A stretch of DNA of 37,330 nt, from the IMG/VR virus record IMGVR_UViG_3300006924_000068, positions 1 through 37,330 of that record; one strand, given 5' to 3'. This DNA is from a virus. The notes beneath the pieces are model-generated. The model was given only the letters and a program-made list of their open reading frames with translations, ran no database searches and was not told where the DNA came from. The translations under genes and the position numbers were made by a program. Below are positions 5,437-36,199 of this stretch, one piece after another. Position 1 is the stretch's first letter. Each line of letters opens with the position of its first letter.

Positions 5437-5949
5437 TTAGATCCAGTATGGTTTACGTTGTGGCATACGAAGGTAATTGTTTTTTACCCACGGTTTAGAT
5501 GCAATGTACATTTTATATGCTGTAAATGTATCTATACTATCGTCAAACTTAAACTCGTCAGGCATTGCTCTGACGAATGGAGTGACACTATTCACACTGC
5601 CCTTTGGAAAGAGATAATATGCGTGAACTAGGGTATTATAACATGAATGTTGCTTATCGTATCGTAATGTGTACTCATCACATAGATTCATACCGTGCTT
5701 GATCAACCACCACGCATTGTCGATGGTTTCTCTTGCCCATATAGTACAAGGATGATTCCTGAATGCTCCCTTATCTGTTTTGTATGGTGTACCATCTATT
5801 TTGGGTAGAGTGCCATAACCGTGACCCCACTTGTCTGATGCTACGATAGCAAGCATTTGACAGCATTCTAACGGCATCTTGACAATGTGCTTGTCAGGTA
5901 GACATATGGCACTCTCTGCTGGATACTCATTGGTGACAAAGATGTTCAT
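5437..5949 (-). CDS. Pyrimidine-dimer glycosylase-like (Pyr_excise-type) cyanophage protein
   Basis: 170 residues from ATG at 5949 (MNIFVTNEYPAESAICLPD). A GTG at 5964 would add five residues. The opening followed by DKHIVKMPLECCQMLA has the shape of a protein family in phages and bacteria linked by annotation to pyrimidine-dimer excision enzymes. Later segments are rich in H, W and C (HPCTIWARETIDNAWWLI, then LCDEYTLRYDKQH). Known T4 endonuclease V uses an N-terminal threonine, which I do not see here, so a repair activity is uncertain. The family assignment is from memory; treat as a conserved phage protein with a possible DNA-repair link. Confidence 0.5.
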   Translation of the reverse strand: MNIFVTNEYPAESAICLPDKHIVKMPLECCQMLAIVASDKWGHGYGTLPKIDGTPYKTDKGAFRNHPCTIWARETIDNAWWLIKHGMNLCDEYTLRYDKQHSCYNTLVHAYYLFPKGSVNSVTPFVRAMPDEFKFDDSIDTFTAYKMYIASKPWVKNNYLRMPQRKPYWI

Positions 5950-5969
5950 ATCACATACGCTCACATACT

Positions 5970-6835: not shown

Positions 6836-8086
6836 TCAGTCGGTAACGTGGATAGCAGGCAATCCTTTGACGAAAATAGTATCCACCAAATTCTGCAACC
6901 GCTTAATAGTATTTACACCGTAGTTTTTGAACACAGGTACAGTTACGAAACCTGTAGTCTTACGATACATCTGACACGCACCAGGTGTAAGTTTGCCTGT
7001 TGCCATATCAGCAGCATCATCACGATTAACACGGATGACACGACCGATAGTCTGTGCCATCTCAATCACATTCAGATTACGAAGGAAGATAGTCTGGGTG
7101 AGACCGTGGACGTTGATACCTTCAGACAGAATAGAATAGTGGAAGATGATAAACTTCTTGTTAGGGTCACGACCCCACTGATCAAACTGGTGAAAGAACT
7201 GCTCACGGTTGACCTTGAGTGTGTTGACATAAGCACCATACTTGCTGGTGATATGCATCACTTCAAACCCACGATCCTTACACTGATCGATGATATCAGT
7301 CTTGGTGAGAAGATTATACATGATACGACTGTTAGGTGCTGCCACAAGGATCTTGTGTGCTGTTGTATCGTTCAGTTTATCAAGTATACCCACCAGAGTC
7401 TCACGGTCGCCCTCACACGCCTGTACGCCCTTCTGACGCTCGAAGTCAACCTCGTAGGCATCAACAGTAGGAGGAAGGATAGAACCGTTGTTAATCAGTT
7501 CAGGAGCAGGACACTGTTCAATGATGTCACCGAACACCACATAGTTGTTCATACCATTAGCATATGGAGAACGTGTATGCTTTGGTGTTGCAGTGAAATA
7601 GTAATAACGCTTGGCGTTGCAGTTACCTACTTCCTGAAAGAAGTTCTTCTTGGTAGCATTGTGTGCTTCATCAAAGTATGCTACATCAAACTCAATACCT
7701 GCCTCATTGAGACGACGCAAGGAGTTATATGTAGTGAAGAAGATACGATGTGCTTGCATAGCAGCACACATATCATCAAAGAGACCGATACGATCTACCT
7801 TGGTAGTATGAAAGTGTACAGTCTCGCCACTGTGAATGTGAGCAGGAACTACATCAGGACGATTGATACCAGCATCAGCAAAAAACTCCTCACACAGTTG
7901 TGTAGCGAGGAGAATGCGCGGAGCAACAACAGCAATAGTCATAGGACGCTCTGCATTAGCAAAGCGATCCGCAAGATCTTTAATCATAATCATAGTCTTA
8001 CCACCGCCAGTAGGGACAATGATCTGCCCGAACTTGTTACGCTGCATAGCAGCGAGAGCGCGGGTCTGGTGGGGACGGAGTTGCAT
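6836..8086 (-). CDS. SF2 DEAD/H-box DNA helicase (ResIII-like)
   Basis: 416 residues from ATG at 8086 (MQLRPHQTRALAAM). All helicase landmarks are visible: Q-like/N-terminal RPHQ at 4-7, Walker A PTGGGKT at 25-31, motif Ia VVAPRILLATQ (53-63), DEAH at 139-142, SAT-type FTATP (164-168), and motif VI QTIGRVIR (345-352). This is an ATP-driven helicase or translocase, related in style to type III restriction res subunits and to T4 UvsW-type enzymes; which one cannot be decided here. At 416 residues it is a plain core without large accessory domains. Expression is likely from the promoter embedded in the terminator at 8109-8144, giving an approximately 16-nt leader. The frame extends upstream to 8137 without a sensible start, so 8086 is chosen. 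Confidence 0.9.
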   Translation of the reverse strand: MQLRPHQTRALAAMQRNKFGQIIVPTGGGKTMIMIKDLADRFANAERPMTIAVVAPRILLATQLCEEFFADAGINRPDVVPAHIHSGETVHFHTTKVDRIGLFDDMCAAMQAHRIFFTTYNSLRRLNEAGIEFDVAYFDEAHNATKKNFFQEVGNCNAKRYYYFTATPKHTRSPYANGMNNYVVFGDIIEQCPAPELINNGSILPPTVDAYEVDFERQKGVQACEGDRETLVGILDKLNDTTAHKILVAAPNSRIMYNLLTKTDIIDQCKDRGFEVMHITSKYGAYVNTLKVNREQFFHQFDQWGRDPNKKFIIFHYSILSEGINVHGLTQTIFLRNLNVIEMAQTIGRVIRVNRDDAADMATGKLTPGACQMYRKTTGFVTVPVFKNYGVNTIKRLQNLVDTIFVKGLPAIHVTD

Positions 8087-8108
8087 GCTGTATGTCTGAT
8101 ATGAATAC

Positions 8109-8137
8109 AGTATGACATAAAAAAAGCACCCCGTCAA
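8109..8137 (-). promoter_or_regulatory. Sigma-70-like promoter with -35 inside a terminator loop
   Basis: TTGACG (8132-8137), 17-nt spacer, CATACT (8109-8114). The TTGACG is the six-base loop of the hairpin terminator 8125-8144, and the spacer contains its T-tract. The predicted start is near 8102, 16 nt before the helicase ATG. Reading both on the minus strand is consistent: the upstream transcript ends where the next begins. Confidence 0.7.
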
Positions 8138-8144
8138 GGGTGCT
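8119..8144 (-). terminator. Rho-independent terminator for the late structural unit
   Basis: Hairpin AGCACCC-TTGACG-GGGTGCT (8125-8144), 7-bp perfect GC-rich stem, followed by six T's on the minus strand (8119-8124; the stem ends in a seventh). It lies 21 nt beyond the stop of the 314-residue gene ending at 8165. A second hairpin precedes it (8147-8164). Confidence 0.85.
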
Positions 8145-8164: not shown

Positions 8165-9109
8165 TCAATTCAATCTATTGCCATCTGCATCAAAACGTAA
8201 GATCCAACTGGTAGTTTCATCAAGTTTAACAAAGTTAGAGTACTTCACTACGTGCAAAATAACATCAACCAGCTCTGTACCCCTGAATATATGTTCCACT
8301 TGCAAGTTAAGTTCTTTGGTATCATCATATACTGGTTCCAATGAGTCAATGACAGCAATTTGATCATCAGTAAGAAGATCCCAGTTTTTATAACCAGTAA
8401 TATGTCTACCAGAGAATTCTCTGTTTGAATGTCTCCTCTTGTTGAGTGGGTTACTCAAAGAAGATGGGTTTCTATGAAATTCTTCTTTAGTAACCTCTGT
8501 GATATATGTTGGATAAGAGAATCCGGAGTATACAGATACCTCTTCGTTTGATCTGAACGTCAACACTCCTGTTACGTAGTTTGGTACAATATAAGAATAC
8601 TTAACAAGTTTTGATAGTAATGGATTATTATATGATGACACATCATAATTCTTACTTTGGATTCTCAATCCTGTAATGTCTCCATAAACATTATGATCAG
8701 CACCTACAAATGCAGTATTAGGTCTATGTTCATCCATAATAACTGCATCCATTCTATCATATAGTTCACTCTCTTCTAGAGATGATGTCTTAATTTTGAA
8801 ATCTTTCCAAAATTGTGACAATGTACTATATTTCAGCATAACCATACTCGTGTATGATGTTATCTCATCACCAACAGAATATGCCCCAAGATGTTTATCC
8901 TCATCATGAGGTGGTTGTACCTCTACAAAAGGATATTGGTATTGAAATATTCTATTAAGAGAATTCCTCACACCCGCTGATATTACAGGTTTATACTGAC
9001 TATCAACTAATGGTGTGAATAACCACGGCATTATAGAGTAATCATCTAAACGATCACCACTAATTAAACTGTACCTTTCGTGTACTTGATAGTTATCAGA
9101 GAATATCAT
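8165..9109 (-). CDS. 314-residue unknown protein, last gene of the structural unit
   Basis: ATG at 9109 overlaps the upstream stop as ATGA. It is rich in tyrosine, serine and aspartate with few long hydrophobic stretches (begins MIFSDNYQVHERYSLISGDR). The region IHVVK-like strand near VDVILHVVKYSNFVKLDE suggests beta structure. It has no motif I recognise. Because it closes the tail-gene unit before a terminator, it may be a virion protein or a modifier of one; that is inference from location only. Confidence 0.65.
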   Translation of the reverse strand: MIFSDNYQVHERYSLISGDRLDDYSIMPWLFTPLVDSQYKPVISAGVRNSLNRIFQYQYPFVEVQPPHDEDKHLGAYSVGDEITSYTSMVMLKYSTLSQFWKDFKIKTSSLEESELYDRMDAVIMDEHRPNTAFVGADHNVYGDITGLRIQSKNYDVSSYNNPLLSKLVKYSYIVPNYVTGVLTFRSNEEVSVYSGFSYPTYITEVTKEEFHRNPSSLSNPLNKRRHSNREFSGRHITGYKNWDLLTDDQIAVIDSLEPVYDDTKELNLQVEHIFRGTELVDVILHVVKYSNFVKLDETTSWILRFDADGNRLN

Positions 9110-9453
9110 TCGTTATCCATGATAACTTGACCTTCATCATTATATAATGCATAGAAGATATAACGCTCTTTAGATGTACCCTCTTGCGATGCAGGGAAGT
9201 TATCAGTGAGAAACTTTTCTGCTTCTAAAATAGATTCCATTTCCACAACTAGATACTCACTATCTTTGAAAAGAGTAGTAAAATCTAAAGGAAGCATACT
9301 TGCATATAATTCAATAGACGAGTTAATAGCATCTACATCAGTGCTATTGTTCCATCCATATACTCGAAAGAAAATTAGAGGTTTACCTGCTAATGCAGCG
9401 TATCTACCAATAAATGTCTGCAAGTCATAAATTTGATATTCTGTGTTATTCAT
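9106..9453 (-). CDS. 115-residue unknown protein
   Basis: ATG at 9453 overlaps the upstream oxygenase stop by 8 nt (ATGAATAA). Features a tyrosine-rich start (MNNTEYQIYDLQTFIGRYAA) and KPLIFFRVYGWNN, later MESILEAEKFLTDNFPASQE. Probably a compact alpha/beta domain. The tight overlap on both sides suggests that it works with the oxygenase upstream or the 314-residue protein downstream. No family recognised. Confidence 0.6.
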   Translation of the reverse strand: MNNTEYQIYDLQTFIGRYAALAGKPLIFFRVYGWNNSTDVDAINSSIELYASMLPLDFTTLFKDSEYLVVEMESILEAEKFLTDNFPASQEGTSKERYIFYALYNDEGQVIMDNE

Positions 9454-9991
9454 TCTTTGTTAGTTTCCAGGCTACAGTAATACGAAGATCATTGAATAAA
9501 CTTGTGGTTGGTGCTGCGGAATGATATACAACACCAGGAAATAGTATTCCCCTATTAGGTTGAAACATTACGGTACGAAGTTCGGTGTCGTTAGTGTAAA
9601 ACTGTGTTCCACCACCCCATTCATTTGCCCATTGTGCATTTGCATATAATAGTAATGTTCTTCCCTGCTCATCATAACAGTCTTGATGATAGATGCCATC
9701 TAAACCATAAGTATGACCGTTGGCATAAACATGTTCAAGAGTAAAAGACTGTTGAGTCTTTTCCTGTATCTTATTTAGAAGATAATCAGTGAAGAATGGG
9801 TCATCACTCAAATCCCTCTTCCAAAACTTACTGCATAAATCATAGTTAGGGTCAGTATGATGATATGAAGTGTGTCCATACTCCCATTTAGGTTCTTGTA
9901 ATGTAGTGATAATCTTGACAAATGTCTCGTCATCAAACACATTATCATATATTGTCAGGTTATCACTCAACAGATCATTAACGGCTTTCAT
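9446..9991 (-). CDS. 2OG-Fe(II) oxygenase family protein
   Basis: 181 residues. The double-stranded beta-helix dioxygenase signature is visible: iron-binding H102-x-D104 in YHQD, a distal H157 (VVYHSAAP), and R170 (DLRITVAWKL) in the position that holds the 2-oxoglutarate carboxylate. Such enzymes couple 2-oxoglutarate decarboxylation with hydroxylation, needing O2 and Fe(II). The N-terminus (IYDNVFDDETFVKIITTLQE) matches the usual start of prolyl-4-hydroxylase-like enzymes in cyanophages. The substrate is unknown; placement among tail genes hints at a virion protein, lipid or carbohydrate target. Overlaps the upstream oxygenase gene by 14 nt. Confidence 0.8.
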   Translation of the reverse strand: MKAVNDLLSDNLTIYDNVFDDETFVKIITTLQEPKWEYGHTSYHHTDPNYDLCSKFWKRDLSDDPFFTDYLLNKIQEKTQQSFTLEHVYANGHTYGLDGIYHQDCYDEQGRTLLLYANAQWANEWGGGTQFYTNDTELRTVMFQPNRGILFPGVVYHSAAPTTSLFNDLRITVAWKLTKNE

Positions 9992-10613
9992 ATTGTCTAA
10001 TCAAATTTAATCTCATTTGTTCTAATTCTACCAAGTATGGACTATCAGAAGGCATACTATACATCACATGAGAGTAGTCTATGAGATGAGAACGCATAAA
10101 ACTGTCTTGTATATCAGATTCCAACCATCCAACAATTACTTTCCTATCTCCTTTGGTGACAGGGTTAATTTTATGCAATGCTCCCGTATTGTATATGATA
10201 ACCGTTCCTGCCTTTGGTTTATGTGATGTCTCTATATTACCTACTTTGATTACTAGTTCACCTCCTTCGTAGTCATCATTCAAGAAGATAGTCATACTCA
10301 TATCAGCATTTACACCACCACAAGGATGAGAATCCATATGCCAATTATAAAAATGTCCCTGTTTATACCATAGAAAGTATAACTGGGACATTTGCTTGAT
10401 TGAATATAATGTAGTGAAGTGATCTTTCTTCTTTATTTCAGACCACACACCTTCATTTAATCTATTATAAGGATCAGTCCACTTCATCATCAAATTCTGT
10501 TTTACAGATGAATCAGGATTACTGATACTGCCACATTGAAAGTTCTTATCTTTATAATGTGATGTAATATATTCTACAATGTCTTGAGACAGTAGATCAC
10601 TCTGCCATATCAT
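9978..10613 (-). CDS. 2OG-Fe(II) oxygenase, PKHD-type hydroxylase
   Basis: 211 residues. Clear active-site pattern: H92-x-D94 in NWHMDS, H147 in ALHKINPVTKGDR, and R157 before VIVGWLES; Y-rich SQLYFLWYKQGHFY lies just before the first histidine. The layout matches PKHD hydroxylases (PiuC-like), and the 'GGELVI ... GTVIIYNTGALH' segment is typical. It needs Fe(II), O2 and 2-oxoglutarate. It overlaps the upstream tail-chaperone gene by 17 nt. Target unknown. Confidence 0.85.
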   Translation of the reverse strand: MIWQSDLLSQDIVEYITSHYKDKNFQCGSISNPDSSVKQNLMMKWTDPYNRLNEGVWSEIKKKDHFTTLYSIKQMSQLYFLWYKQGHFYNWHMDSHPCGGVNADMSMTIFLNDDYEGGELVIKVGNIETSHKPKAGTVIIYNTGALHKINPVTKGDRKVIVGWLESDIQDSFMRSHLIDYSHVMYSMPSDSPYLVELEQMRLNLIRQYESR

Positions 10614-11538
10614 TTAAATCCTCTGCAGTGTAAATTTTATTGTAATCAACTCCACCTTCAACAAAATCCTCAAGTTTCAATAGTTTCATCATTTCTTTAA
10701 CAGCAGTGGAAACTACTCTTTCTGATTTAACATAGTCTTGACGCATTGCAATAATGTGAGAAAGTCTTGATTCAACCAAATCTCTTGATGAATCAGTATC
10801 TCTTTCAACCCATTGGGTGTCAGTTCCCAAGTATTCTACCACATTTCCATCAACATCTACACCATCAGGATATAAATCTTTAAAGTTTTTGGGATCAATA
10901 GGCCATTTTAAAGACCTAACAGCTTTAAAAAATTCTAACGGAGTTGCATATTCTGCAACAGGTTTGATTCCCAGTGCTCTAATTGTCTGACGATATAAAA
11001 TCCACCTGTCTTTCTCTCCAGCATAAGTATCAACAACATCAGGAAGAATACGCCAATCAGTTGATGTCAAAATAGCATTTCTTTCTTGCAATCTTTTTAG
11101 GTAAGTTTTATCAAAGAATAAAATACTATCATCAACTTTGGTTACATACTTATTGATTTTAATCTCTTTGACTACTTTATTAGCGTCAAGAAAAGTGAGA
11201 ACCTTATCCTGTAAATCAGAAACCTGTTCAGTAGTATATCCACTGAAAGTGTATGTAGTATACACTTTTCTATCATTTACAAAATCAAACTTTTGCTTTT
11301 TCCTTTGACAAAATAAACTACCATCAGAAAAGAATGACAGTGTTTGTAGTTGATCAGTCTCTGTATGCCAAAAAGGATCTAGATTCTCCAAGAATCTAAC
11401 CATTACATCTTTTTCAAATTTCTCGGTAGAAAGTACCTTACGACCATCATTTAATAGAAAAGTTTTATTAGCATCGATAACAATTAAATTGAGGAAATCG
11501 ACTTCCAAAATAGAATCCCTATTTACGTATTCAGCCAT
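10597..11538 (-). CDS. Tail assembly chaperone-like protein (Phage_tail_APC motif)
   Basis: 313 residues. Residues 153-190 carry RNAILTSTDWRILPD then EKDRWILYRQTIRAL, which matches the pattern of phage tail-fibre assembly chaperones (RD..L..tDW..lPD...s...w..YRq.lR.l). The N-terminal half (about 1-130) is beta-rich and the C-terminus is helical and charged (LVESRLSHIIAMRQDYVKSE). It probably helps fold or attach tail fibres encoded upstream (12-24 kb). The gene lies between two oxygenases with 8-17 nt overlaps, so these proteins appear functionally coupled. The domain call rests on a short motif. Confidence 0.65.
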   Translation of the reverse strand: MAEYVNRDSILEVDFLNLIVIDANKTFLLNDGRKVLSTEKFEKDVMVRFLENLDPFWHTETDQLQTLSFFSDGSLFCQRKKQKFDFVNDRKVYTTYTFSGYTTEQVSDLQDKVLTFLDANKVVKEIKINKYVTKVDDSILFFDKTYLKRLQERNAILTSTDWRILPDVVDTYAGEKDRWILYRQTIRALGIKPVAEYATPLEFFKAVRSLKWPIDPKNFKDLYPDGVDVDGNVVEYLGTDTQWVERDTDSSRDLVESRLSHIIAMRQDYVKSERVVSTAVKEMMKLLKLEDFVEGGVDYNKIYTAEDLNDMAE

Positions 11539-12199
11539 TTGTTTTCCCCGATTTAATGTACCAACCTGTTACTATGTATTTATTATTCTCACCCATAACT
11601 AAATTACCTTTATGTACGTGAGTCATTCCTGCAGGAAACATAACTACTGTACCTGCAGTAGGTTTGAGTCTACGCAATTGATACTGAAACTCTGTTTCTC
11701 CACCATCTTCTACATCATTCAGATAAATCATCCACGTAACTTCTCGTTGGGCGTGTCCAACATCTCCATTTTCATAATGCCATAGATGATATCCACCACC
11801 TGGTGGTGTACGTTGAAATTTAATATCAGTTGATGTCAACCCAACATGCGATAATTGAGAATATTGTTGAACATAATGAAGAGCAGTTGACTTTAAAAAT
11901 TGATTAATTTGTGACGCCCACTGATCACTGTGATAGTTCAACATAAATGATCTATCATGGCGTCGATGTCTTCCATTGTACATCGAACCACCGTCCATAA
12001 TATCTTCAGTACCAATACCAATACTATGTCCTACAACATCATCTAAAACATCATTACCATATTTAATAAGTTGGTCACAAAATGCTTTAGGAACAAAATT
12101 TCTCCAAATACCAATAAAATCATTGAATTCAAAGTCAGTCAGATTCACATCTGACATTAATTCTATTGGTCGGTAAGGTGCAAGTGCTTTTGTTGTCAT
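11531..12199 (-). CDS. 2OG-Fe(II) oxygenase with HxE in place of HxD
   Basis: 222 residues. The pattern is GGYHLWHYENGDVGHAQREV, MIYLNDVEDGGETEF, then PTAGTVVMFPAGMTHVHKG and NKYIVTGWYI. This is the prolyl-4-hydroxylase-like layout, with K207 at the 2-oxoglutarate position and H194 or H196 as the distal ligand. The first ligand pair reads H141-Y-E143: glutamate stands where HxD enzymes have aspartate. That is uncommon but tolerated in some dioxygenases. Begins MTTKALAPYRPIELMSDVNL. It lies 4 nt after the collar-fibre stop, and its product may modify that fibre. Confidence 0.78.
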   Translation of the reverse strand: MTTKALAPYRPIELMSDVNLTDFEFNDFIGIWRNFVPKAFCDQLIKYGNDVLDDVVGHSIGIGTEDIMDGGSMYNGRHRRHDRSFMLNYHSDQWASQINQFLKSTALHYVQQYSQLSHVGLTSTDIKFQRTPPGGGYHLWHYENGDVGHAQREVTWMIYLNDVEDGGETEFQYQLRRLKPTAGTVVMFPAGMTHVHKGNLVMGENNKYIVTGWYIKSGKTNG

Positions 12200-12202
12200 A
12201 TT

Positions 12203-15200
12203 TTAGAATGCTTTAATAATATATTTTGCTTTATGAAACTCTGGTGCTAGGGGAACTGTTCTAGTAGGAGAGAATACTACATCAGGAATAGGTTTCTTGA
12301 TACTAGTATTTAGAGTGAATGTTCCAGGGTTCAACTCCATACCAACGTCTGCTTGAGTAAATGTGAGGTTGAGAGATTCTTGCGCTGACCCCAATCCTAC
12401 TTTCCCATTACCAACACCTGACTGATTTCCATATGAATAATCTGTATCTAAATCAGTTACTGCTTGTGTTGTAATAAAATGAGAATGTGTTTCAGTAATA
12501 GAATTATTATCCCCGTCAACAATAGGAGGAACATATGAATCAACTCTTACAAATGTTTGGTCTGTATCAATAACAGCACTTACATTTCTAGCTCCCTGAC
12601 CAGCAGTACCTCCAACATCATAGAATGTACCTTGAATCCCAACGTTCGTGAGATAAGAATCAGAAACACCAGAATATGGTGAAGGCCACCAAGTATTTGC
12701 TGTAATTTGAAGTGAACGTCGTGCTGCTGAATCGTTTGGATCTGTAGTTGATGGACTAATACTCTGAATCAACGTCGTTACTAAAGACTCTAAAGTTGCA
12801 GTACCAGAAATATCATCCCATTCTCTTTCAAATTGAGCACCAGAATAATTGTCTAATCGTGCTAACCAAGCTTGAACAATTGGGTTAGGATTAGATGATA
12901 ACTGGTTATCACCAGCATCTACGAATATTGGTGCTGTCGATTGTCCTAAACCAGCAGATACATTATGCATGTTTAATATAGATGATCCGCGTGTGCCCCA
13001 TTCAATAAGAGGATCACCAGTTAAACCATCAGGAACTGCAGCAACATATAAGTGAGTATGAGCAGGAACATTAACCGCAGTATCTAATAATGGTCCAACT
13101 TGAGCAGTTACACTACCACTAGAAGCAATTGTAAATTCAACATCTTGTACAATATCAGAATCAAATACAGTTTTTACGGTTCCTAAAGAAAAGAAATTAC
13201 TTTGGATTCCTGTTGTATCTGTAGTATCATCAGATACAATGATTTCATATGGATTGTCACCTGCAACGTCTACATCGTCAACATACCACCAACCACCAAG
13301 TCCACCTGGTTCGTATACACTAGCACCACCACTAACAGGAACTTGTGCTGATGATGCTTTGTTTCCATTAACAACGCCAGTTCCTACAAGTTTTCTATTT
13401 CTATAGTCTGGTAACTGGAAACTATTACCAGATCCACCATAATCATAACCAATGACATCAAATAAGAATGGATAATCATCTTTATCTAATATTTGTCCAG
13501 AACATTCAAAATACCCAGGATATCTTGATGTTATGCTTCCGTCCAGTACACCATAAGAACCATTTGGTTGCTTGAGAATAGCAACAATAGTACCGATAGC
13601 ATGACCATCTTCTTTACTTTCGATAACCATAGGATTAGCTACTGTAGCTACTGGGATAGTAGCGTCTCCATTACCACTACCTGTAATAGTTATAACTTCG
13701 GAACCAGTATATCCAGAACCCCCATTAGCAATAGCAACACTAATAATATTACCAGATCCATCAGCATCAATGTTAACTGTTAATCCAGTTCCAGAACCAC
13801 TAGAAGAAGTAGACACTCTAGTTGTATTCCCCGTAGTATATCCAGTACCAGCAGCAGTGATAGGTCCAAGACTCTCGACTAAACCTTCAAGAAGCAATGA
13901 ACCTTTCTTACTATACCACGAACCTTTTATTTCTGGTGGAGGTGGTGCAACAGAATAGTTACTTACCTTCCAAGTAAATTGATTTGGCGTTCCTGTACCT
14001 ACAGTTACCGTTGTTTCTTTTTGTCCAGCAATGACTTGACCACCGGCATCTAAAGTAAATAAATTACCATCTGAAGTAATAAAGACACGGAACGAACTAT
14101 GAATAGTAGGATCAAATGTAACTGGACCTGCTACTGGAGTAGCAAAGTCGATAGAAATAGTAGCACCATTTGTTGCATTGATAGTGATTGGTCTATTAAT
14201 ACCAGTCACTGCAATAATACTACTTAATACCTCTGTACCGGGAACTTGATTAGTGAGATTGTTGGGAATTGGATAATCTGCATCAGTATCTGGTCCTGAA
14301 TTAGTAGTAATACTCCAAGGATTAAGAACTCTCTGACCGACTTTAATAGTAGTTGATACTACTGATGGCGTTAGAGCAGTTGAAAATGTTTCTGAAGACT
14401 TATTGTATAGTACAATCCTATCTCCATTGTTTACTTTTGTTGGGAACAATCCAACAGAACTCTCACCTCCCTCTGCATACTGAATCTTAATTCTTGGTTC
14501 ATCTCCACCAGAATCATTAGAAGAAGTACTGCTTACCAATACAACATCAACTTCTACATTTGTACCTAATTCGCTAATGCCTCCTGGAGGATCATTAGGA
14601 TCTGGTGCTGGATCAGAAGCAATTAATGCACCTTCTAATACATCAATTTGATTAACAAAACTGAAATCTTTTGGCGTAGTTGATGGGAAATTACCGTTAG
14701 TTACAGTCCAGATAGATCCACTTGACTCATCACCAATAGATAGCGGATTTGATGATACAGCACCTGCAGTATTTTCAGTTATAACATACAATTGTAAATA
14801 TTGACCGTTATTAATTGTTGGTGCAGGATTGTTAGTTACTAATTCAAAAACCGTATTATCTAAAATTTCATATCCATTACCATCAGTGAAAAATGTATTA
14901 TTATCAGATACACCCACATATAAATTATTGTTCGTTGATGAAATTATTGCAGTATCATTTAATCCTTGGACCTGCAAAATATTACTATAAACAGCAGTAG
15001 CTAATGGTTGATTAAAAAGATCATCGAAGTCTGGAAATGGTACAGGAATGTTAGGAGGAACTACCTTTGTATTAATTACCCAACGTTCTGTTCTCGTACC
15101 AATTGTTACATCAATGTAAGTTAATAATCCGGGAATAGGATTAGATAATAACTTGATTTGAATTTCATCTGTATTTTCTACAGTAAGTGATCCTGGAGTA

Positions 15201-15595
15201 GGAAGCACCCAATTACCAAAAACTGTTTCTCCATCAGATACTTTCTTAACTCTGATAGCGAAGTTACTAACATTTGCAACTAATGAACCGGTAACCGCAA
15301 CACTTGCTTCAGTAGATGTAGTTAATCCAGTTACAGTAACAATATCTTCTCCAGGTCTACTTCCATCTGCATAGACATACATGACACCAGTATCTGCGTC
15401 ATTAAGAGTCTTAAACGGATATGGATCAGGAGCAAAATCTTCTGGGATCGTAGTGATATACCAGGTTGTCTCCTGTTCACCAATTAAAATCCTTACCGAG
15501 GATGTAGTGTTCCACTGCGAAGGCGCTTTAAATTTAAAGCGAACGGTTTGTCCTTCGCTGACAAATACTGGTGATGTAGAATAAGAATATGTCAT
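12203..15595 (-). CDS. Large tail fibre-like structural protein with collar domain
   Basis: 1130 residues from ATG at 15595. The N-terminus (about 1-550) is a chain of beta-sandwich segments with regular 'V.V.G.....' strands (for example SVRILIGEQETTWYITTIPE). Around 590-650 it holds a glycine-rich repeat, GTGYTTGNTTRVST ... GGSGYTGSEVITITG. At about 685-745 is a tail-collar pattern: GYFECSGQILDKDDYPFLFD then FQLPDYRNRKLVGTG. Histidine pairs (AHTHLY, ETHSHF) in the C-terminal part resemble the metal-binding HxH motifs of T4 short tail fibres. It likely is a trimeric tail fibre. A late CTAAATAA box at 15638-15645 lies 43 nt upstream. Collar and HxH patterns are the strongest evidence. Confidence 0.85.
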   Translation of the reverse strand: MTYSYSTSPVFVSEGQTVRFKFKAPSQWNTTSSVRILIGEQETTWYITTIPEDFAPDPYPFKTLNDADTGVMYVYADGSRPGEDIVTVTGLTTSTEASVAVTGSLVANVSNFAIRVKKVSDGETVFGNWVLPTPGSLTVENTDEIQIKLLSNPIPGLLTYIDVTIGTRTERWVINTKVVPPNIPVPFPDFDDLFNQPLATAVYSNILQVQGLNDTAIISSTNNNLYVGVSDNNTFFTDGNGYEILDNTVFELVTNNPAPTINNGQYLQLYVITENTAGAVSSNPLSIGDESSGSIWTVTNGNFPSTTPKDFSFVNQIDVLEGALIASDPAPDPNDPPGGISELGTNVEVDVVLVSSTSSNDSGGDEPRIKIQYAEGGESSVGLFPTKVNNGDRIVLYNKSSETFSTALTPSVVSTTIKVGQRVLNPWSITTNSGPDTDADYPIPNNLTNQVPGTEVLSSIIAVTGINRPITINATNGATISIDFATPVAGPVTFDPTIHSSFRVFITSDGNLFTLDAGGQVIAGQKETTVTVGTGTPNQFTWKVSNYSVAPPPPEIKGSWYSKKGSLLLEGLVESLGPITAAGTGYTTGNTTRVSTSSSGSGTGLTVNIDADGSGNIISVAIANGGSGYTGSEVITITGSGNGDATIPVATVANPMVIESKEDGHAIGTIVAILKQPNGSYGVLDGSITSRYPGYFECSGQILDKDDYPFLFDVIGYDYGGSGNSFQLPDYRNRKLVGTGVVNGNKASSAQVPVSGGASVYEPGGLGGWWYVDDVDVAGDNPYEIIVSDDTTDTTGIQSNFFSLGTVKTVFDSDIVQDVEFTIASSGSVTAQVGPLLDTAVNVPAHTHLYVAAVPDGLTGDPLIEWGTRGSSILNMHNVSAGLGQSTAPIFVDAGDNQLSSNPNPIVQAWLARLDNYSGAQFEREWDDISGTATLESLVTTLIQSISPSTTDPNDSAARRSLQITANTWWPSPYSGVSDSYLTNVGIQGTFYDVGGTAGQGARNVSAVIDTDQTFVRVDSYVPPIVDGDNNSITETHSHFITTQAVTDLDTDYSYGNQSGVGNGKVGLGSAQESLNLTFTQADVGMELNPGTFTLNTSIKKPIPDVVFSPTRTVPLAPEFHKAKYIIKAF

Positions 15596-15637: not shown

Positions 15638-15645
15638 TTATTTAG
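15638..15645 (-). promoter_or_regulatory. Late promoter candidate CTAAATAA
   Basis: CTAAATAA on the minus strand, in the 60-nt gap between the upstream adhesin stop (15656) and the 1130-residue gene start (15595), differs from TATAAATA mainly at the first bases. The same CTAAATAA is seen at 36184. It would let the fibre and oxygenase genes be expressed without reading through the whole giant unit. Short AT-rich motifs are common, so confidence is moderate. Confidence 0.55.
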
Positions 15646-15655
15646 GGGTGACGGT

Positions 15656-17050
15656 TTATATGTTCTCCACGTCAACCCATACACCATCATTATCAATCTG
15701 TACCTGAATAGGAGAATCTGACTTGATTTCTACAGGAATATCAATATCAGTAACTAATAGTTCTTCTGTTGTTAACTGTATGTCAGGAGTTATTACAGGT
15801 GCCTGATCTTTAATTAACTCATCTGATTCTGGCACAATGATAGAATCGGGTAGTCTATCTATTATAGTAGGAACTATTTCAACATCTTCAGATGTTAATG
15901 AGGCAACTCCCTCCGCAAGTAATTTGTACTCAATTCTAGCAGGTCCACGATTATCCCATGCAGGAGTATGTGTAATACTACCACTTGACTCATCACCTGT
16001 TGGTAATACTACATCAGCACCTATAGTTTCTACACCATCTAACGAGTAGTAATATGGTACTATCTTTAGTGATACCGTAGCATTAATTGATGTATACCCC
16101 AACTCTAAACTATTGCCATAACTAACATTTAAAGGAACTGTTAAATCAATAACAGGTGGTTGTAATACTGTTAATGTAATCTCATCACTATCAACCCCAC
16201 CCAAACCAGATGCAGTTGCAGTGTAAGTTGTAGTTACAGTAGGAGATACTACTTGGAATGAAGATAAATTAGTAGAACCGATTCCGGGTTGGATAGTATT
16301 TGTACTTGCATCTCCAGTTGTTGACCACCTCAATACTGTAGATTGCCCTAACGTTATTGTACTATCATCTAAAGATAATGTTACAACAGGAGGAATGTAA
16401 ACTATTAAAGTTTTTGTAATTGCGCGGGTTCCTCCTAATCCATTAGCAGTTAATACATATGATGTTGTACCTGCTGGAGAAACTGCTCTAGATCCTGATG
16501 TACCTACTGCTCCAAATTGATTAATAACTCTATAATAACTATTAGATGTACTCCAAGAAATTGTCGATGTTTCTCCTCGGATAATAGTTAATGGACTAAC
16601 TGATAATACTACGGATGGCGGAGTAAAATAACATGTACCATTATCTACCGTTGCGCTAGGATTATAGTTTGCTGCTTGTGGATTAGTACAACCAGGGACA
16701 GGTGGAGGAGGACAACTAGACCCGGTTCTTAAATTTGTATGCCTTCCGTATCTGTTAACATTACCCAATTCACCACTAGATATTCCCCCGGATCTGACCA
16801 TTGCGTAGATACTGCTAAAACCACCCCTAGTAGGGTGATATACCCACGTACCCAAATATCCTTCTACACCACCAACTTCTCCATATCTACCAAACAATGA
16901 TCTGTATGCATTTGTAATTGCATTGCGAACGTAGTCGTTTCCTCCTGGCGGACTAGGATCACTGCTATATCCCTGCGGCCACCATAGAGTTCCACGGTCA
17001 CAAATATATGGATTTCCGTAACGATTGTAACTACTACTTCTATAAGGCAT
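15656..17050 (-). CDS. Modular adhesin-like virion protein 1 (DUF4214-like head)
   Basis: 464 residues. Head (1-112): tyrosine/arginine-rich, with NAYRSLFGRYGEVGGVEGYL (48-67), which resembles DUF4214-type segments (YR.LfGR....G...). Then a GCTNPQAANYNPSATVDNG cysteine motif (120-138), known from secreted bacterial surface proteins; Ig-like domain 1 (143-215); Ig-like domain 2 (219-297) with TVLRWSTTGDASTNTIQPG; Ig-like domain 3 (298-390); and a C-terminal tail ending PIQVQIDNDGVWVDVENI. The last three parts are shared with the next three genes. Probably a receptor-binding or capsid/tail decoration protein. ATG overlaps the upstream stop by 1 nt (TAATG). Confidence 0.75.
   Translation of the reverse strand: MPYRSSSYNRYGNPYICDRGTLWWPQGYSSDPSPPGGNDYVRNAITNAYRSLFGRYGEVGGVEGYLGTWVYHPTRGGFSSIYAMVRSGGISSGELGNVNRYGRHTNLRTGSSCPPPPVPGCTNPQAANYNPSATVDNGTCYFTPPSVVLSVSPLTIIRGETSTISWSTSNSYYRVINQFGAVGTSGSRAVSPAGTTSYVLTANGLGGTRAITKTLIVYIPPVVTLSLDDSTITLGQSTVLRWSTTGDASTNTIQPGIGSTNLSSFQVVSPTVTTTYTATASGLGGVDSDEITLTVLQPPVIDLTVPLNVSYGNSLELGYTSINATVSLKIVPYYYSLDGVETIGADVVLPTGDESSGSITHTPAWDNRGPARIEYKLLAEGVASLTSEDVEIVPTIIDRLPDSIIVPESDELIKDQAPVITPDIQLTTEELLVTDIDIPVEIKSDSPIQVQIDNDGVWVDVENI
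16203..16264 (-). repeat. Exact 62-bp repeat, copy 1, in Ig-like module of adhesin genes
   Basis: Bases 16203-16264 are identical to 17597-17658 (62 of 62), in the codons for SSFQVVSPTVTTTYTATASG. A second exact stretch of about 48 bp lies downstream on the + strand (16308-16355 region against about 17702-17749). Silent third-base identity over this length implies recent duplication or gene conversion between adjacent genes, not only protein-level selection. Confidence 0.85.
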
Positions 17051-18603
17051 TAAGTGATCTCCTCCACATTTAAATACACACCACTATTATCAATTTCCAC
17101 TTGAATAGGAGCATCTGCTTTGATTGCTACTGGTATATCAATATCATCAACGACGAGTTGTTCTGTAGTGACTTCAATATCTGGTGAAATGATAGGAGTT
17201 TCATTTTTAATCTTGTCTTCGGACTCCGGTACTATAATACCAGCTGGCATTTGATCAATATCAATATTGACAGTAGCAATATCAGAATCTGATAAATCAC
17301 CGGCACCAACTGCATATAAAGTGTATATGATAGATACTGGTCCTCTATTATGATAAGGAACATTATGAGTATATGTACTATTAGCAGACGCAGATGCTCC
17401 TAAACTAATAATCTCGGAGGTAATATTACCATCCAAATCTGTCATTGCAATCTGCAATTCATATGCAATCGTAGCTCTTACTTGTTCATGCTGTAATGTT
17501 ATTGATTGTCCATAAAGAACAGATATTGGTCCAGATATGCTAACTTCTGGTGGTGGTATTACAACTAATGTAATCTGATCGGTATCAGTTCCACCTAAAC
17601 CAGATGCAGTTGCAGTGTAAGTTGTAGTTACAGTAGGAGATACTACTTGGAATGAAGACAAATTACTACTACCAATTCCAGGTTGAATATCATTTGTACT
17701 TGCATCTCCAGTTGTTGACCACCTCAATACTGTAGATTGTCCTAATGTTATCTCCGCGTCATCCAACAATAATGTTACGATAGGAGGAATGTAAACTATT
17801 AGAGTTTTAGTACTGCTGTTGCTAGTGTAACCATAGTAACCTGCACTTATCGTATATGTTGTATCATCAGCTGGAGATACTACTGTAGAACCACTAGCAG
17901 CAATAGCGCCGACACTACTTAACGATCTACTAGTGGCATTACTAATACTCCAAGATAATGTAGAATTTTGTCCTCGTATAATAGCTGGTGGTGCTATCGA
18001 GAAACTGATACTGGGAGTAGGATATGAACATCCACTATTAACATTAGCACTTGGATTATAATTAGATGCTAAAGGATCCATACACCCATAGACATTATAC
18101 GTACATCCCGTACTGTATTGATTTGCATATGGATTATAGTTATTAGCACTAGAGTCTTTACAACCATATACAAATACAGGAGAATACCACGCAACACCTT
18201 TAGCTGAGTATCCCCCGCCAGCAGAACTACTAGTCGAATACCTATGATCTACAAGTGCAGAATTATAAGATTTATAAACTGGTACACGATATTGTCCAGG
18301 ACTAGTATATGCATGACCAATAATACCTTCAAAAACATAACCAGCAGGAGTGCTGCTATTAGTTTTGTAAAAGTGATTATATTGAGTTGGATTCCAAAAT
18401 CTGTATACAGGTGAAACACTCCCAACTACTCCAGCAACACCGCTAGACATAAAAAGATTCCAAACACCATATCCTGCAGGACTATATGCACTGATTGATT
18501 CGCCGCCAGAGTTTGAAGTATAGAAAGTATCTACTCTAATATAACCAGGATTGAAAAAACCGTAAAAAGAATCGAATGTATGTAGACTACCTGAAGTTCC
18601 CAT
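17050..18603 (-). CDS. Modular adhesin-like virion protein 2 (DUF5648-like head)
   Basis: 517 residues. Head (65-145): SPVYRFWNPTQYNHFYKTNS, then VPVYKSYNSALVDHRYSTSS and GVAWYSPVF, the pattern of DUF5648 repeats (VYRf.n...g.HFYt......), a lectin-like surface domain. Two cysteine motifs follow, GCKDSSANNYNPYANQYSTG (147-166) and GCMDPLASNYNPSANVNSG (173-191). Three Ig-like domains come next, with STVLRWSTTGDASTNDIQPG again, and a tail ending QVEIDNSGVYLNVEEIT. Ig domain 2 is nearly identical to that of the protein at 15656, including at the DNA level. ATG at 18603, 3 nt after the upstream stop. Confidence 0.75.
   Translation of the reverse strand: MGTSGSLHTFDSFYGFFNPGYIRVDTFYTSNSGGESISAYSPAGYGVWNLFMSSGVAGVVGSVSPVYRFWNPTQYNHFYKTNSSTPAGYVFEGIIGHAYTSPGQYRVPVYKSYNSALVDHRYSTSSSAGGGYSAKGVAWYSPVFVYGCKDSSANNYNPYANQYSTGCTYNVYGCMDPLASNYNPSANVNSGCSYPTPSISFSIAPPAIIRGQNSTLSWSISNATSRSLSSVGAIAASGSTVVSPADDTTYTISAGYYGYTSNSSTKTLIVYIPPIVTLLLDDAEITLGQSTVLRWSTTGDASTNDIQPGIGSSNLSSFQVVSPTVTTTYTATASGLGGTDTDQITLVVIPPPEVSISGPISVLYGQSITLQHEQVRATIAYELQIAMTDLDGNITSEIISLGASASANSTYTHNVPYHNRGPVSIIYTLYAVGAGDLSDSDIATVNIDIDQMPAGIIVPESEDKIKNETPIISPDIEVTTEQLVVDDIDIPVAIKADAPIQVEIDNSGVYLNVEEIT
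17597..17658 (-). repeat. Exact 62-bp repeat, copy 2
   Basis: Second copy of the stretch at 16203-16264, in the same codons of the homologous Ig-like module. The unit spacing is 1394 nt, i.e. one gene length. It can be a target for homologous recombination that would swap heads. Confidence 0.85.
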
Positions 18604-18605
18604 AT

Positions 18606-20291
18606 TTAAATCTCCCTAATATCTACGTATACACCACTATCATCAATTTCTACCTGAATAGGAGAATCAGCTTTTATTTCTACTGGTATATCTATACCAT
18701 CAACAAGAATTTTATCTGTCGTAAGTGTTATATCAGGACTTATTACAGGAGTTTGATCTATAAATTTCTCATCAGATTCAGGAACAATCATGGCATCAGG
18801 GGTTCTGTCAATAACAACATTTACCGTCTTAATATCTTCATCTGTTAATGATCCAACCCCTATACCATATAATTTGTATTCTATACGAACAGGTCCAATA
18901 GTATTGTATGCTGGACTATGAGTTGTATCACGGTCAACTATCGTCGCAATTGGAAGCTGCTCTACAAGAATGTAATTACTAAATGAACCATCAGCATAGT
19001 AATACTTAACTAAAAGTTGTAGGGAAACACCAGAATTAACAGAATATGATGATAAATTAATATCATCACCATAATTAACAGAAAATGGTGCTGTTAATGT
19101 TACTACAGGTGGTGTAACCACAGTAACAGTAACTTGATCAGAACCTTGACCTGCTAATGGATGAGAAGCAGTTAATGTATATGTTGTAGTTTGTGTTGGA
19201 GTTACCTGAATAGGTGTTGAATTAATATTGACACTACCAATGCCGGGAGTTAATTGTGCAGTGGAAGCATCTCCAGTAATACTGTATATTAAATTAATAG
19301 ACTCCCCTTGTATGATTACATTGTCAGATCTATCTGTCGAAAGATTTACAGTAGGAGGAATAAGTACGTCTACACTCCGTGATTGAGATCGAGTACCACC
19401 AGGACCAGATGCGGTTAGTGTATATGTTCTATCATTAGGAGGACTAATTGATACAGTTTGTGATACCGGACGATTACCAGGAAAGTCTGTTAGTGAGACA
19501 GATGTTGCATTACCAGCAATATTATAAGATAAAGTTGCATTAGATCCGCGAACAAATTGATTGGGTGTTATTGTAAAAAATTGAATGTCTGGTGGAGCGT
19601 AGCTAAATGATGCTGTGAAAAATCCATTACCATAATTTGAATACCCACTATTATAAGTCCAGTTATAATATTGGGTATTACTATACCATCCAGAGTTGCC
19701 CCCAATGCCAGCATATCCGTTATACGTAGTTGCACCACCTAACCCACCAGCACCGCCAGTAGACATTCCTCCTCCTCCACCACCACGGTGACCAGCAGGA
19801 GCATTTCCACCATTCCTCGCACTTATTGAACCGGTTGTAGATCCACCACCAATACCACGACCAGCAGAATAGTATCCACTATAACCGGTGTTATTATCCA
19901 TTCTACCAGCACCGCCACCACCACCAACAATGACAGTATATCTGTTTAATCCACTATCATAAACACCAGAAGCGCCACCACCACCGCCACCAGAACGGTG
20001 ACCATTACCACCACTTGCTAATGGAGAATAACCACCAGATCCACCAGGGTTAGCTGGTCCATATCCTTTAGAACCTTGTCCACCAATATAAAAAGTTAAA
20101 ACATAGTCATAACTACGAGTAAGTAATCTAAAATTACCAGCTCTACCAAATCCACCATTAGAAAAATTCCACCCACCTGATGATTGCGAACCTCCACCGG
20201 ACGCAGCACCTACACTGAATATTACATTTGTAGAAAATTTTGGTACAGTGACTCGATGCGTACCTGGTTGTCGTGATGAAAAATTAGGCAT
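18606..20291 (-). CDS. Modular adhesin-like virion protein 3 (glycine-rich head)
   Basis: 561 residues. Head (about 25-210) is glycine-rich: SVGAASGGGSQSSGGW, GGNGHRSGGGGGGASGVYDS, VIVGGGGGAGRMDNN and similar, with aromatic residues spaced between. T4-like phage receptor-binding adhesins (gp38-type) contain stacked polyglycine-II helices with this look. Then three Ig-like domains (PPDIQFFTITPNQFVRGSNA; PPTVNLSTDRSDNVIIQGES; PPVVTLTAPFSVNYGDDI) and a tail ending SPIQVEIDDSGVYVDIREI. The glycine head is likely the variable receptor contact; the C-terminus is likely the attachment or fold module. Confidence 0.75.
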   Translation of the reverse strand: MPNFSSRQPGTHRVTVPKFSTNVIFSVGAASGGGSQSSGGWNFSNGGFGRAGNFRLLTRSYDYVLTFYIGGQGSKGYGPANPGGSGGYSPLASGGNGHRSGGGGGGASGVYDSGLNRYTVIVGGGGGAGRMDNNTGYSGYYSAGRGIGGGSTTGSISARNGGNAPAGHRGGGGGGMSTGGAGGLGGATTYNGYAGIGGNSGWYSNTQYYNWTYNSGYSNYGNGFFTASFSYAPPDIQFFTITPNQFVRGSNATLSYNIAGNATSVSLTDFPGNRPVSQTVSISPPNDRTYTLTASGPGGTRSQSRSVDVLIPPTVNLSTDRSDNVIIQGESINLIYSITGDASTAQLTPGIGSVNINSTPIQVTPTQTTTYTLTASHPLAGQGSDQVTVTVVTPPVVTLTAPFSVNYGDDINLSSYSVNSGVSLQLLVKYYYADGSFSNYILVEQLPIATIVDRDTTHSPAYNTIGPVRIEYKLYGIGVGSLTDEDIKTVNVVIDRTPDAMIVPESDEKFIDQTPVISPDITLTTDKILVDGIDIPVEIKADSPIQVEIDDSGVYVDIREI

Positions 20292-21850
20292 TATATTTCC
20301 CTAATGTTCTGCCAAACGTTATCATTATCAATTTCCACTTGAATAGGAGAATCTGCTTTGATCTCCACTGGTATATCTATATCAGTAACGATAAGTTGAT
20401 CTGTAGTAACTTCTACATCAGGAGTTATTACGGGTTCCTCATCTTTAAATGCGTCATCAGTTTCAGGTACTTGAATAGCATCAGGAGTTGTATCAATTAT
20501 AATAGGAATTTCAATGCTATCACTTTCTTCTAATGTTCCAAACCCATCTACAAGAAATGTAAGTCTTACTTTAAATGGTCCATAATCAGTATATGCAACA
20601 GGTATTGTATGTCCAAATACAGTTACTTCATCACCAATAGTGTCAGGTATTGCTACTGAAGGTTTAAACTCATTAGTTCCATCAGTATATAAGTATTCAG
20701 CAATGTAACTAATACCTCCATCAGAATTAGTAGCACTAACAGTTACTTGAATATCTTCATTGTATAATATGTTAATGGGTCCACTCACACTAATAGTCGG
20801 TGGTTCTAGTACATAAACTAATACCTCCGCAGAACCTGTTCCTCCTAAACCAGAAGCAGTAATAGTATATAATGTATCTACAGTAGGAGATATTGTTGCG
20901 AAACTATTCAGATTAGAACCCCCAATACCAGGAGTAATATTCACATTATCAACGTCACCAGTCACAGTCCAACGCAATATAGTGCTGTTCCCTTGCACTA
21001 TCGTAGCATCAGTAGCATCTACACTAAAAGTTATTTGTGGCGGTATGTATACAGTAACTGTAACAGTAGAAGATCTAGTGTATGCAGGATTTGTTGTAGT
21101 TAATCTGAATTCACTGGTTTCTGTAGGAGCAACAGTCAAATTACCAGATCTATTTACCTGTCCGAGTGATTCAACAACAGCACCATTACGCATTCTTTCT
21201 AATACTTCTGATGTAGACTCACCACCACCAGTTGTCCATGTTAAACACGATCGAGAATTATTCCCATCAGTTCCATTTAATCTATACGCAGTGGGATTAG
21301 CACTGATTGATGGTGTTGGAGGATCGTATGTACAAATAGTGGCATATACCGATCCAGAATATCCATATCTACAACTACCACTGCCACCTTGCTGACCGCC
21401 TTGACCTACAATAGCATAAACATTTTGTCCAGGTTGCGCCCCAGAACTACCTCTATATTTTACACAGCACGATGCACCTCCACCACCTCCGCCATAACTT
21501 GAGCCACCACCTCTCCACTGACCCGATCCGCCCTGTCCAGTGCTTCCATATCCTGATGCAGCTCTATTCCATGGACCACCACCGTATCTACCGCTAGATC
21601 CATATCTCCAGTTACCATATCCACCGCTGCCTCCACTATAAAAACTACCAGGACCACCACCATAAGAGATAGTTCCACCAGCACAACTATATCCTCCGGA
21701 CTGTGGTGTTTTACCAAAGTAAGGATTTCCGGGTATATTAGGACGTGCTCCGCCGCCACCACCACCTACAGTAATCCAACTAACATATTTTACACAAGTT
21801 GATATATTAATATTACTACTATATGATCGATATACGTTGAAGGATGCCAT
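20291..21850 (-). CDS. Modular adhesin-like virion protein 4 (glycine-rich head)
   Basis: 519 residues. Head (about 25-165) is glycine-rich, beginning VKYVSWITVGGGGGGARP and continuing with GGGPGSFYSGGSGGYGNWRY and QWRGGGSSYGGGGGGASCC. It differs in sequence from the third protein but shares composition. It has several cysteines (CAG, CCVKY, GSCRYG), which the others lack at these places. Three Ig-like domains follow (STILRWTVTGDVDNVNITPG), with tail ending SPIQVEIDNDNVWQNIREI. First of four coupled genes: its stop overlaps the next ATG by 1 nt (TAATG). Confidence 0.75.
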   Translation of the reverse strand: MASFNVYRSYSSNINISTCVKYVSWITVGGGGGGARPNIPGNPYFGKTPQSGGYSCAGGTISYGGGPGSFYSGGSGGYGNWRYGSSGRYGGGPWNRAASGYGSTGQGGSGQWRGGGSSYGGGGGGASCCVKYRGSSGAQPGQNVYAIVGQGGQQGGSGSCRYGYSGSVYATICTYDPPTPSISANPTAYRLNGTDGNNSRSCLTWTTGGGESTSEVLERMRNGAVVESLGQVNRSGNLTVAPTETSEFRLTTTNPAYTRSSTVTVTVYIPPQITFSVDATDATIVQGNSTILRWTVTGDVDNVNITPGIGGSNLNSFATISPTVDTLYTITASGLGGTGSAEVLVYVLEPPTISVSGPINILYNEDIQVTVSATNSDGGISYIAEYLYTDGTNEFKPSVAIPDTIGDEVTVFGHTIPVAYTDYGPFKVRLTFLVDGFGTLEESDSIEIPIIIDTTPDAIQVPETDDAFKDEEPVITPDVEVTTDQLIVTDIDIPVEIKADSPIQVEIDNDNVWQNIREI

Positions 21851-35314: not shown

Positions 35315-35319
35315 TTGAG

Positions 35320-36165: not shown

Positions 36166-36183
36166 GACTTTTTCCACTACGGA

Positions 36184-36191: not shown

Positions 36192-36199
36192 TAGTGAAA

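Follow-up and report, generated by a model that had tools for sequence, protein, structure and literature searches.

Why three different 2-oxoglutarate (2OG)-Fe(II) oxygenase genes should lie together behind a tail fibre gene is the question raised by the region 9446–12199 of the window, i.e. the whole 37,330-nucleotide stretch of viral DNA analysed here. The original prediction held that these enzymes hydroxylate virion proteins, either adhesin heads or fibres, during assembly.

Organization of the gene cluster

ORF calls placed three 2OG-Fe(II) oxygenase genes (A, B and C) in this region, with a further gene (K) between A and B, and the cluster A-K-B-C is found directly behind the collar-domain fibre gene F. 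The genes of this unit and the signals flanking it all lie on the minus strand. F (12203–15595) encodes a gp12-like short tail fibre of 1130 aa, with a Pfam Collar match of 2.7e-11 and an assignment to phrog_4924 (short tail fiber). A (11531–12199) is a prolyl-4-hydroxylase-like oxygenase (H141-x-E143, H196, K207), K (10597–11538) a tail-assembly-chaperone-type protein with an APC-like segment at about residues 142–217, B (9978–10613) an oxygenase of the PiuC/PKHD family (H92-x-D94, H147, R157), and C (9446–9991) an oxygenase with a PHD/P4H-type fold (H102-x-D104, H157, R170). According to the coordinates, F and A are separated by 3 nt, and the following genes overlap by 8 nt (A/K), 17 nt (K/B) and 14 nt (B/C). 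The Pfam family 2OG-FeII_Oxy_3 was matched by A (8e-13), B (1e-14) and C (1.2e-5), the last at 26.6 bits against a cut-off of 27 in the protein scan and at 27.6 bits in the genome search. ORFs and Pfam matches thus confirmed the arrangement first described, three different oxygenases with a Phage_tail_APC-type gene between them behind a fibre gene.

The predicted operon extends past C through two further genes encoding proteins without assigned function: one of 115 aa (phrog_4883; 9106–9453), which overlaps C and has an equivalent position in S-CAM3, S-CAM1, S-PM2 and Syn1, and, as the last gene, one of 314 aa (phrog_4851; 8165–9109). It ends at an intrinsic-terminator-like hairpin (about 8115–8144; 8 pairs, 5 of them GC, followed by a T run) located before a helicase gene. 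Similar hairpins were found ahead of the helicase gene in S-CAM3, S-H9-1 and ACG-2014h, and none in S-PM2. At the other end, a T4-late-promoter-like motif, CTAAATA (15639–15645), has its first base 50 nt ahead of the F start. Of 41 related loci, 39 have the pattern [ACT]TAAATA no further than 90 nt ahead of F, in most cases at 33–50 nt, compared to 4.8% of random windows. Counts of YATAAATA and CTAAATA across the whole window showed no excess over chance, so that only the position of the motif before F, kept in relatives, is informative; predicted sigma-70-type promoters around the cluster were also at the chance level (43, with 42.7 expected). The promoter-like motif kept before F and the touching or overlapping genes agree with the predicted membership in a late-type fibre operon, and F-A-K-B-C plausibly constitutes a virion-assembly operon that would be expressed late.

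Conservation of the gene order

The order F-A-K-B-C was found in 14 isolate genomes examined (S-CAM3, S-CAM1, S-PM2, Syn1, S-CAM4, ACG-2014i, ACG-2014e, Sf-CH11, S-RIM44, S-H9-2, S-RIM32, Sf-FP1, Sf-CH1b and, with one extra gene, S-RSM4) as well as in almost every one of 80 related metagenomic contigs, and it was kept at protein identities as low as about 20–30%. On contigs seeded with K, A immediately preceded K in all 72 testable cases, F was upstream of A in 68 of 71, B was downstream of K in all 71, and C followed B in all 69. Gene order, proposed at the outset as a check, is thus conserved in cyanophage isolates and metagenomic contigs alike. Pairwise distances correlated among F, A, K, B and C (r 0.84–0.97, calculated on operon genes only, with no outside control gene), indicating that the genes were inherited together. 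In a random-order model of a 240-gene genome with 5–10 2OG genes, three of these fell within four consecutive genes in about 0.3–3% of gene orders; a single genome is therefore weak evidence, and it is the order kept across many divergent phages that makes the cluster real.

Departures from the order were also found. ACG-2014h and S-H9-1 have no C, and Sf-FR1 has the fibre and K genes with none of A, B and C adjoining. The operon is lacking in Syn33. In the five operon-less phages examined, K, F and the collar family phrog_4714 were all absent together.

The putative fibre-assembly protein and candidate substrates

K matched phrog_4697 ("tail assembly chaperone") at 2.9e-102. The K of the window matched PF16778 (Phage_tail_APC) with an E-value of 2e-4 and 21.6 bits, under the cut-off of 26.6, while 23 of 44 K relatives matched this family, the best at 6.4e-8. 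Similarity to PDB 2kz6 was found as well (E 4.8e-8; Z 5.1, rmsd 2.0 over 63 residues). No clear PDB fold match was obtained for K outside the APC segment, and at E <0.001 the viral library yielded nothing beyond relatives of K itself. K is accordingly a Phage_tail_APC-type protein, and the family name suggests that it may act as a chaperone.

The leading explanation for the cluster, which we put forward tentatively, is that A, B and C hydroxylate proteins of the fibre apparatus during assembly, the proteins named below being candidate substrates. F and neighbouring fibre proteins would be synthesised at the late stage of infection, alongside K, A, B and C, and K would help the fibre to fold or assemble, the role usually attributed to APC-type proteins. 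A, B and C would act as cytoplasmic Fe(II)/2-oxoglutarate hydroxylases on new F, its collar partners or K prior to assembly, adding hydroxyls to side chains, e.g. of proline, and this hydroxylation could stabilise or tune the fibre.

A search of F and its neighbours for the textbook targets of hydroxylases, collagen-like Gly-X-Y runs and long proline-rich stretches, gave none that were convincing; the only runs seen were PPP/PPPP in some members and 12-aa Gly-X-Y in two glycine-rich window proteins, and the S-RSM4 fibre has a 21-aa Gly-X-Y run. Adhesin heads, part of the original prediction, are not favoured as substrate, as the phrog_2155 adhesin paralogues are lacking in S-RSM4, ACG-2014h and S-H9-1, all of which carry A and B. 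A link between C and these paralogues can be rejected, since S-RSM4 lacks them but has C, and Sf-FR1 lacks C but has weak relatives of them.

The three oxygenases and alternative roles

The facial triad H-x-D/E...H and the basic 2OG-binding residue were invariant or nearly so in the alignments of A, B and C. The double-stranded beta-helix fold was identified in C by AlphaFold2 and Foldseek, and profile matches alone point to it in A and B; structure models were built from window and metagenomic-relative sequences. Judged by sequence, all three are members of the 2OG-Fe(II) oxygenase superfamily with intact active sites and are presumably catalytic. They form three old, separate clades in the phylogenetic tree, which excludes tandem duplication as their source. 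Each cyanophage genome contained 5–10 PF13640 matches scattered across the genome, meaning that many such enzymes must serve other roles; in other cyanophages, enzymes related to A and C adjoin genes for head proteins, replication or photosynthesis. The setting of A-type enzymes outside the operon was mixed, being directly behind fibre genes in the podovirus S-TIP37, downstream of tail genes with a few small genes in between in ACG-2014f, and elsewhere in S-TIM54.

The nearest solved relatives of A were the B. anthracis P4H and further P4Hs (3itq/5hv0, E 7e-10; 1e-5 with a larger alignment). The iron ligands in the aligned tail-cluster proteins are H-x-E and not the P4H-type H-x-D, and A is therefore termed P4H-like rather than P4H. 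The tail-cluster A proteins formed one clade (100/95), apart from the A-like paralogues that these genomes carry at other places.

The model of C (pLDDT 93.6) had PHD2/EGLN1 as its best Foldseek and VIA match (Z 16.8, rmsd 3.4, 171 residues), and similar scores were obtained with the P. putida P4H in complex with EF-Tu (Z 16.5, rmsd 3.5, 171 residues) and with the small-molecule enzyme SnoN (Z 15.9, rmsd 3.0, 165 residues). The fold of C is close to that of PHD2 and the P. putida enzyme, at 11–12% identity, but other 2OG enzymes come within 1 Z unit, so that EGLN/PHD is no more than a likely assignment. By sequence, its best solved match was OGFOD1 (E 7e-5, and 4e-4 in another search), a ribosomal-protein hydroxylase, with EGLN1 at 0.007 and weaker. 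The protein-hydroxylase relatives of A and C agree with the original prediction. The substrates could also be host proteins, e.g. translation proteins, hydroxylated late in infection, with the fibre-operon position serving only for timing. The closeness of the C model to the EF-Tu complex, equal to that to PHD2, and the match to OGFOD1 would fit such a role; however, the fold ties do not reveal the substrate, as SnoN scores nearly as well, and such a role, which we consider unlikely, would not explain why so many divergent phages keep the oxygenase genes interleaved with K behind F.

B aligned over its whole length with the PKHD-type hydroxylases PiuC, YbiX and CciO (E 1e-37 to 1e-40 against PiuC-family structures, profile positions 2–216) and fell into one clade with cellular PiuC, including that of Prochlorococcus (100/99), placing it in the PiuC family. 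Cellular members function in iron homeostasis, with siderophore-like substrates suggested (PMC12004947, PMC12004943); CciO, a homologue of PiuC, helps to maintain iron homeostasis, and cellular PiuC genes are typically found beside a TonB receptor gene (PMC12004947), whereas B follows a fibre-assembly-type gene. B could accordingly handle iron chelates while A and C draw 2-oxoglutarate and so tune host nitrogen signalling, the place in the operon being historical, and a 2OG/NtcA model for cyanophage 2OG enzymes has been published (PMC3037559). We regard this as improbable, since B-type proteins share only about 26–36% identity with the cellular PiuC found, no TonB receptor gene adjoined B in any locus examined (its neighbours in the isolate loci being K and C), and neither A and C nor the association with F and K would be explained.

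Alteration of the host envelope to exclude rival phages, as proposed for the pelagimyophage "host recognition cluster" (PMC7029224), is a still more distant prospect. Fibre regions of marine T4-like phages do carry host-surface genes, e.g. for glycosyltransferases (PMC7029224), but the operon has no glycosyltransferase or envelope gene, A, B and C share a late-type unit with K, and the solved sequence relatives of A and C are protein hydroxylases. Nucleic-acid repair or modification, a role suggested earlier for the 2OG enzymes of cyanophages (Weigele 2007, as cited in PMC3037559) and echoed in the public name "DNA endonuclease V" of C's family, is highly improbable: the name is wrong, as C matches only 2OG families, has a 2OG oxygenase fold and gave no match to the pyrimidine-dimer glycosylase domain Pyr_excise (a genuine Pyr_excise gene lies at 5437–5964 of the window), and solved-structure searches gave no AlkB-type sequence match and only weak Tet-like matches to B (E at least 0.2).

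Speaking for hydroxylation of the fibre apparatus are the kept order, the promoter-like motif, the tight junctions, the invariant catalytic residues, the P4H relatives of A and the PHD2-like model of C, together with the single clade of tail-cluster A, the joint absence of K, F and phrog_4714, and the correlated distances. Counting against it are the membership of B in a family tied to iron homeostasis in cells, the A- and C-related enzymes away from fibres, the presence of fibre and K without the oxygenases in Sf-FR1, the missing C in ACG-2014h and S-H9-1, the lack of convincing collagen-like repeats in F and its neighbours, and the 5–10 PF13640 matches scattered over cyanophage genomes.

Relation to known systems and implications

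The fibre-oxygenase region of S-PM2, Syn1 and S-CAM3 (clusters T4-GC 740, 240, 741, 28, 166, 742 and 743) carries this set of genes, ordered alike, and the window is a further member. The module is visible gene by gene in public annotations; the genes are annotated singly, and the literature consulted treats 2OG genes as metabolic or repair genes rather than as a fibre-linked unit. We found no description in the literature of F-A-K-B-C as a unit, nor of virion hydroxylation in tailed phages. In T4, a fibre gene is followed by that of an assembly protein, with a late-type promoter (gp37-gp38, gp57A); this resembles the F-K arrangement, but no oxygenases are known at that place. A also matches PDB 5c5t (E 1.7e-7 and 1.1e-5), which we take to be the viral prolyl 4-hydroxylase of PBCV-1, a eukaryotic virus; that enzyme has HxD in place of the HxE of A, and we know of no adjoining fibre operon or assembly protein. 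Hydroxyproline has been reported in PBCV-1 proteins (Eriksson 1999, as cited in PMC9301287), which together with the viral enzyme provides a precedent.

It is conceivable, if somewhat doubtful, that widespread marine T4-like phages hydroxylate their own fibre apparatus, using three dedicated oxygenases and a fibre-assembly protein for enzymatic fibre maturation. Genes for 2OG-Fe(II) oxygenases rank among the commoner enzyme genes of marine cyanophages, and the literature consulted casts them in metabolic or repair roles. If the fibre-linked set modifies virion proteins, fibre chemistry, beyond sequence, would enter into host recognition and stability at sea, and virion quality would be tied to the oxygen, iron and 2-oxoglutarate of the infected cell. 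The role of cyanophage 2OG oxygenases would then become directly testable by mass spectrometry of virions.

Gene layout of the fibre region

The 37,330-base IMG/VR virus contig derives from a T4-like cyanophage, and three 2OG-Fe(II) oxygenase genes, A (11531–12199), B (9978–10613) and C (9446–9991), lie on its minus strand with K, a Phage_tail_APC-type (tail assembly chaperone-type) gene, between A and B (10597–11538), exactly at the originally predicted positions. The closest annotated relatives across this region were Synechococcus phages of the Kyanoviridae, with S-CAM3 first (K 56% identical). In order of transcription, the minus strand encodes a giant fibre-like protein of 3646 amino acids (24185–35125), a gp12-like fibre, a collar protein, four paralogous phrog_2155 virion proteins (15656–21850), the 1130-residue collar-domain fibre F (12203–15595), A, K, B, C and two unknown genes, after which come a terminator-like hairpin and a UvsW-like helicase gene. 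The giant fibre gene, with the T4-late-promoter-type motif TATAAATA just before it (35164–35171), is likely the start of the entire fibre region; three tRNA genes (Asn, Thr, Leu; 35242–36283) are found upstream of the giant gene. The phrog_2155 paralogues share a C-terminal part and differ in their heads, two being very glycine-rich (519 and 561 amino acids) and two (464 and 517 amino acids) containing cysteine-bearing NYNPSA-type repeats, with DUF5648 in one paralogue; they resemble a repertoire of interchangeable adhesin heads. The TTG start of the helicase ORF (6836–8137) falls within the terminator-like hairpin at 8137, and the real start is probably an ATG near 8086.

Conservation and operon architecture

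Three 2OG genes among four consecutive genes would be expected in approximately 0.3–3% of random orders (5–10 2OG genes per genome), and one genome alone is therefore not convincing. Conservation in cyanophages, proposed as a check of the original prediction, was borne out: the order F-A-K-B-C recurs in 14 isolates (S-CAM3, S-CAM1, S-PM2, Syn1, S-CAM4, ACG-2014i, ACG-2014e, Sf-CH11, S-RIM44, S-H9-2, S-RIM32, Sf-FP1, Sf-CH1b and, with one small gene inserted, S-RSM4) and in K-seeded metagenomic contigs. C alone is missing from ACG-2014h and S-H9-1. In the contig set (the best 80 of 161, biased to closer relatives and including some near-copies), A was directly upstream of K in all 72 testable cases and B downstream of K in all 71; C followed B in all 69, and F preceded A in 68 of 71. 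Protein identities among 15 phages, including the window, were as low as 38% (A), 17% (K), 24% (B), 29% (C) and 25% (F).

Module junctions in 13 isolates were overlaps of at most 28 nt or gaps of at most 44 nt, with B and C overlapping in all 13, as in the window. Of 41 related loci, 39 have the motif [ACT]TAAATA, which resembles the T4 late promoter TATAAATA, no more than 90 nt upstream of F and mostly at 33–50 nt (4.8% for random windows from the same loci); in the window it is represented by CTAAATA (15639–15645, minus strand); in ACG-2014h and S-H9-1 a similar motif precedes A instead. In the window, the last gene is followed by a T-run hairpin; S-CAM3, S-H9-1 and ACG-2014h have similar hairpins, whereas S-PM2 has none. 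F-A-K-B-C is a real, conserved module embedded in an operon, and because of the tight junctions, the motif before F and the hairpin, late co-transcription of A, K, B and C with the fibre is predicted as likely.

The fibre F and the chaperone-type protein K

The APC segment of K had a Pfam match in 23 of 44 relatives as well as a match to PDB 2kz6; no clear match to the N-terminal beta domain or the C-terminal part was found among solved structures. Syn33, S-RIM2, P-SSM2, P-HM1 and S-TIP37 lack all three of K, F and the collar family phrog_4714. F contains two conserved H-x-H pairs (H846/H848 and H1037/H1039). In T4 fibres, pairs of this kind serve as metal ligands, and those of F may thus have a link to iron. 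Their position next to the PiuC-type enzyme B is noteworthy.

Three different oxygenases

Alignments showed the triads of A, B and C to be intact and invariant or nearly so. A carries H-x-E, H and K residues and has prolyl 4-hydroxylases as closest solved relatives, while B belongs to the PiuC family by both full-length sequence match and phylogeny. The AlphaFold2 model of C (pLDDT 93.6) matched best to PHD2/EGLN1 and the EF-Tu-bound Pseudomonas P4H, with other 2OG enzymes tying. In a tree of 88 proteins, A, B and C from the tail cluster fell into three separate, well-supported groups: A in a clade of its own that excludes the A-like paralogues found at other places in these genomes, B with cellular PiuC, and C with two relatives located away from fibres. 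Local duplication is thereby ruled out, and three different enzymes have been brought together.

Relatives of C are publicly named "DNA endonuclease V" (phrog_274), also in RefSeq records, an identity contradicted by both sequence and fold, which are those of a 2OG oxygenase. The window's real DenV-type gene is a pyrimidine-dimer glycosylase gene at 5437–5964 (PF03013, E 1.1e-15). A and B in turn match the families phrog_2297 ("DNA endonuclease") and phrog_3531 ("ferrochelatase"), whose names suggest a misnaming of the same kind.

Possible function of the module

Tentatively, the best explanation is that A, B and C act on the fibre apparatus during assembly, since A and B are strictly tied to F and K and late-type control is indicated. 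This reading is open to doubt because cellular relatives of B serve in iron homeostasis, where siderophore-type compounds have been suggested, but not proven, as their substrates (PMC12004947, PMC12004943), because Sf-FR1 retains fibre and K with none of the three enzymes beside them (L037:4818-6136), and because A- and C-related enzymes elsewhere adjoin gp23/gp3, photosystem or clamp-loader genes and no convincing substrate motif for hydroxylation was found in F and its neighbouring proteins. The three enzymes may have different targets rather than a common one. Mass spectrometry of virions would have a natural negative control in Sf-FR1. The T7-like podovirus S-TIP37 carries an A-like oxygenase gene directly behind its tail-fibre genes (L025:7821-8564), possibly an independent case of a fibre-linked oxygenase.

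For cyanophage 2OG enzymes, earlier work has drawn links with DNA repair as well as with 2-oxoglutarate and nitrogen signalling (PMC3037559); elsewhere they are classed among the auxiliary metabolic genes whose function is uninvestigated (PMC9602691). A Baltic Sea study tied viral P4H genes in general terms to viral-fibre collagen, citing PBCV-1 (PMC9301287). In the searchable open-access papers, no description of the module as a unit was found, and no account of a tailed phage whose fibres are hydroxylated. Each part of the module is ordinary and it is their combination that is unusual; the originally predicted hydroxylation of virion proteins is a plausible, testable candidate mechanism that would account for it.
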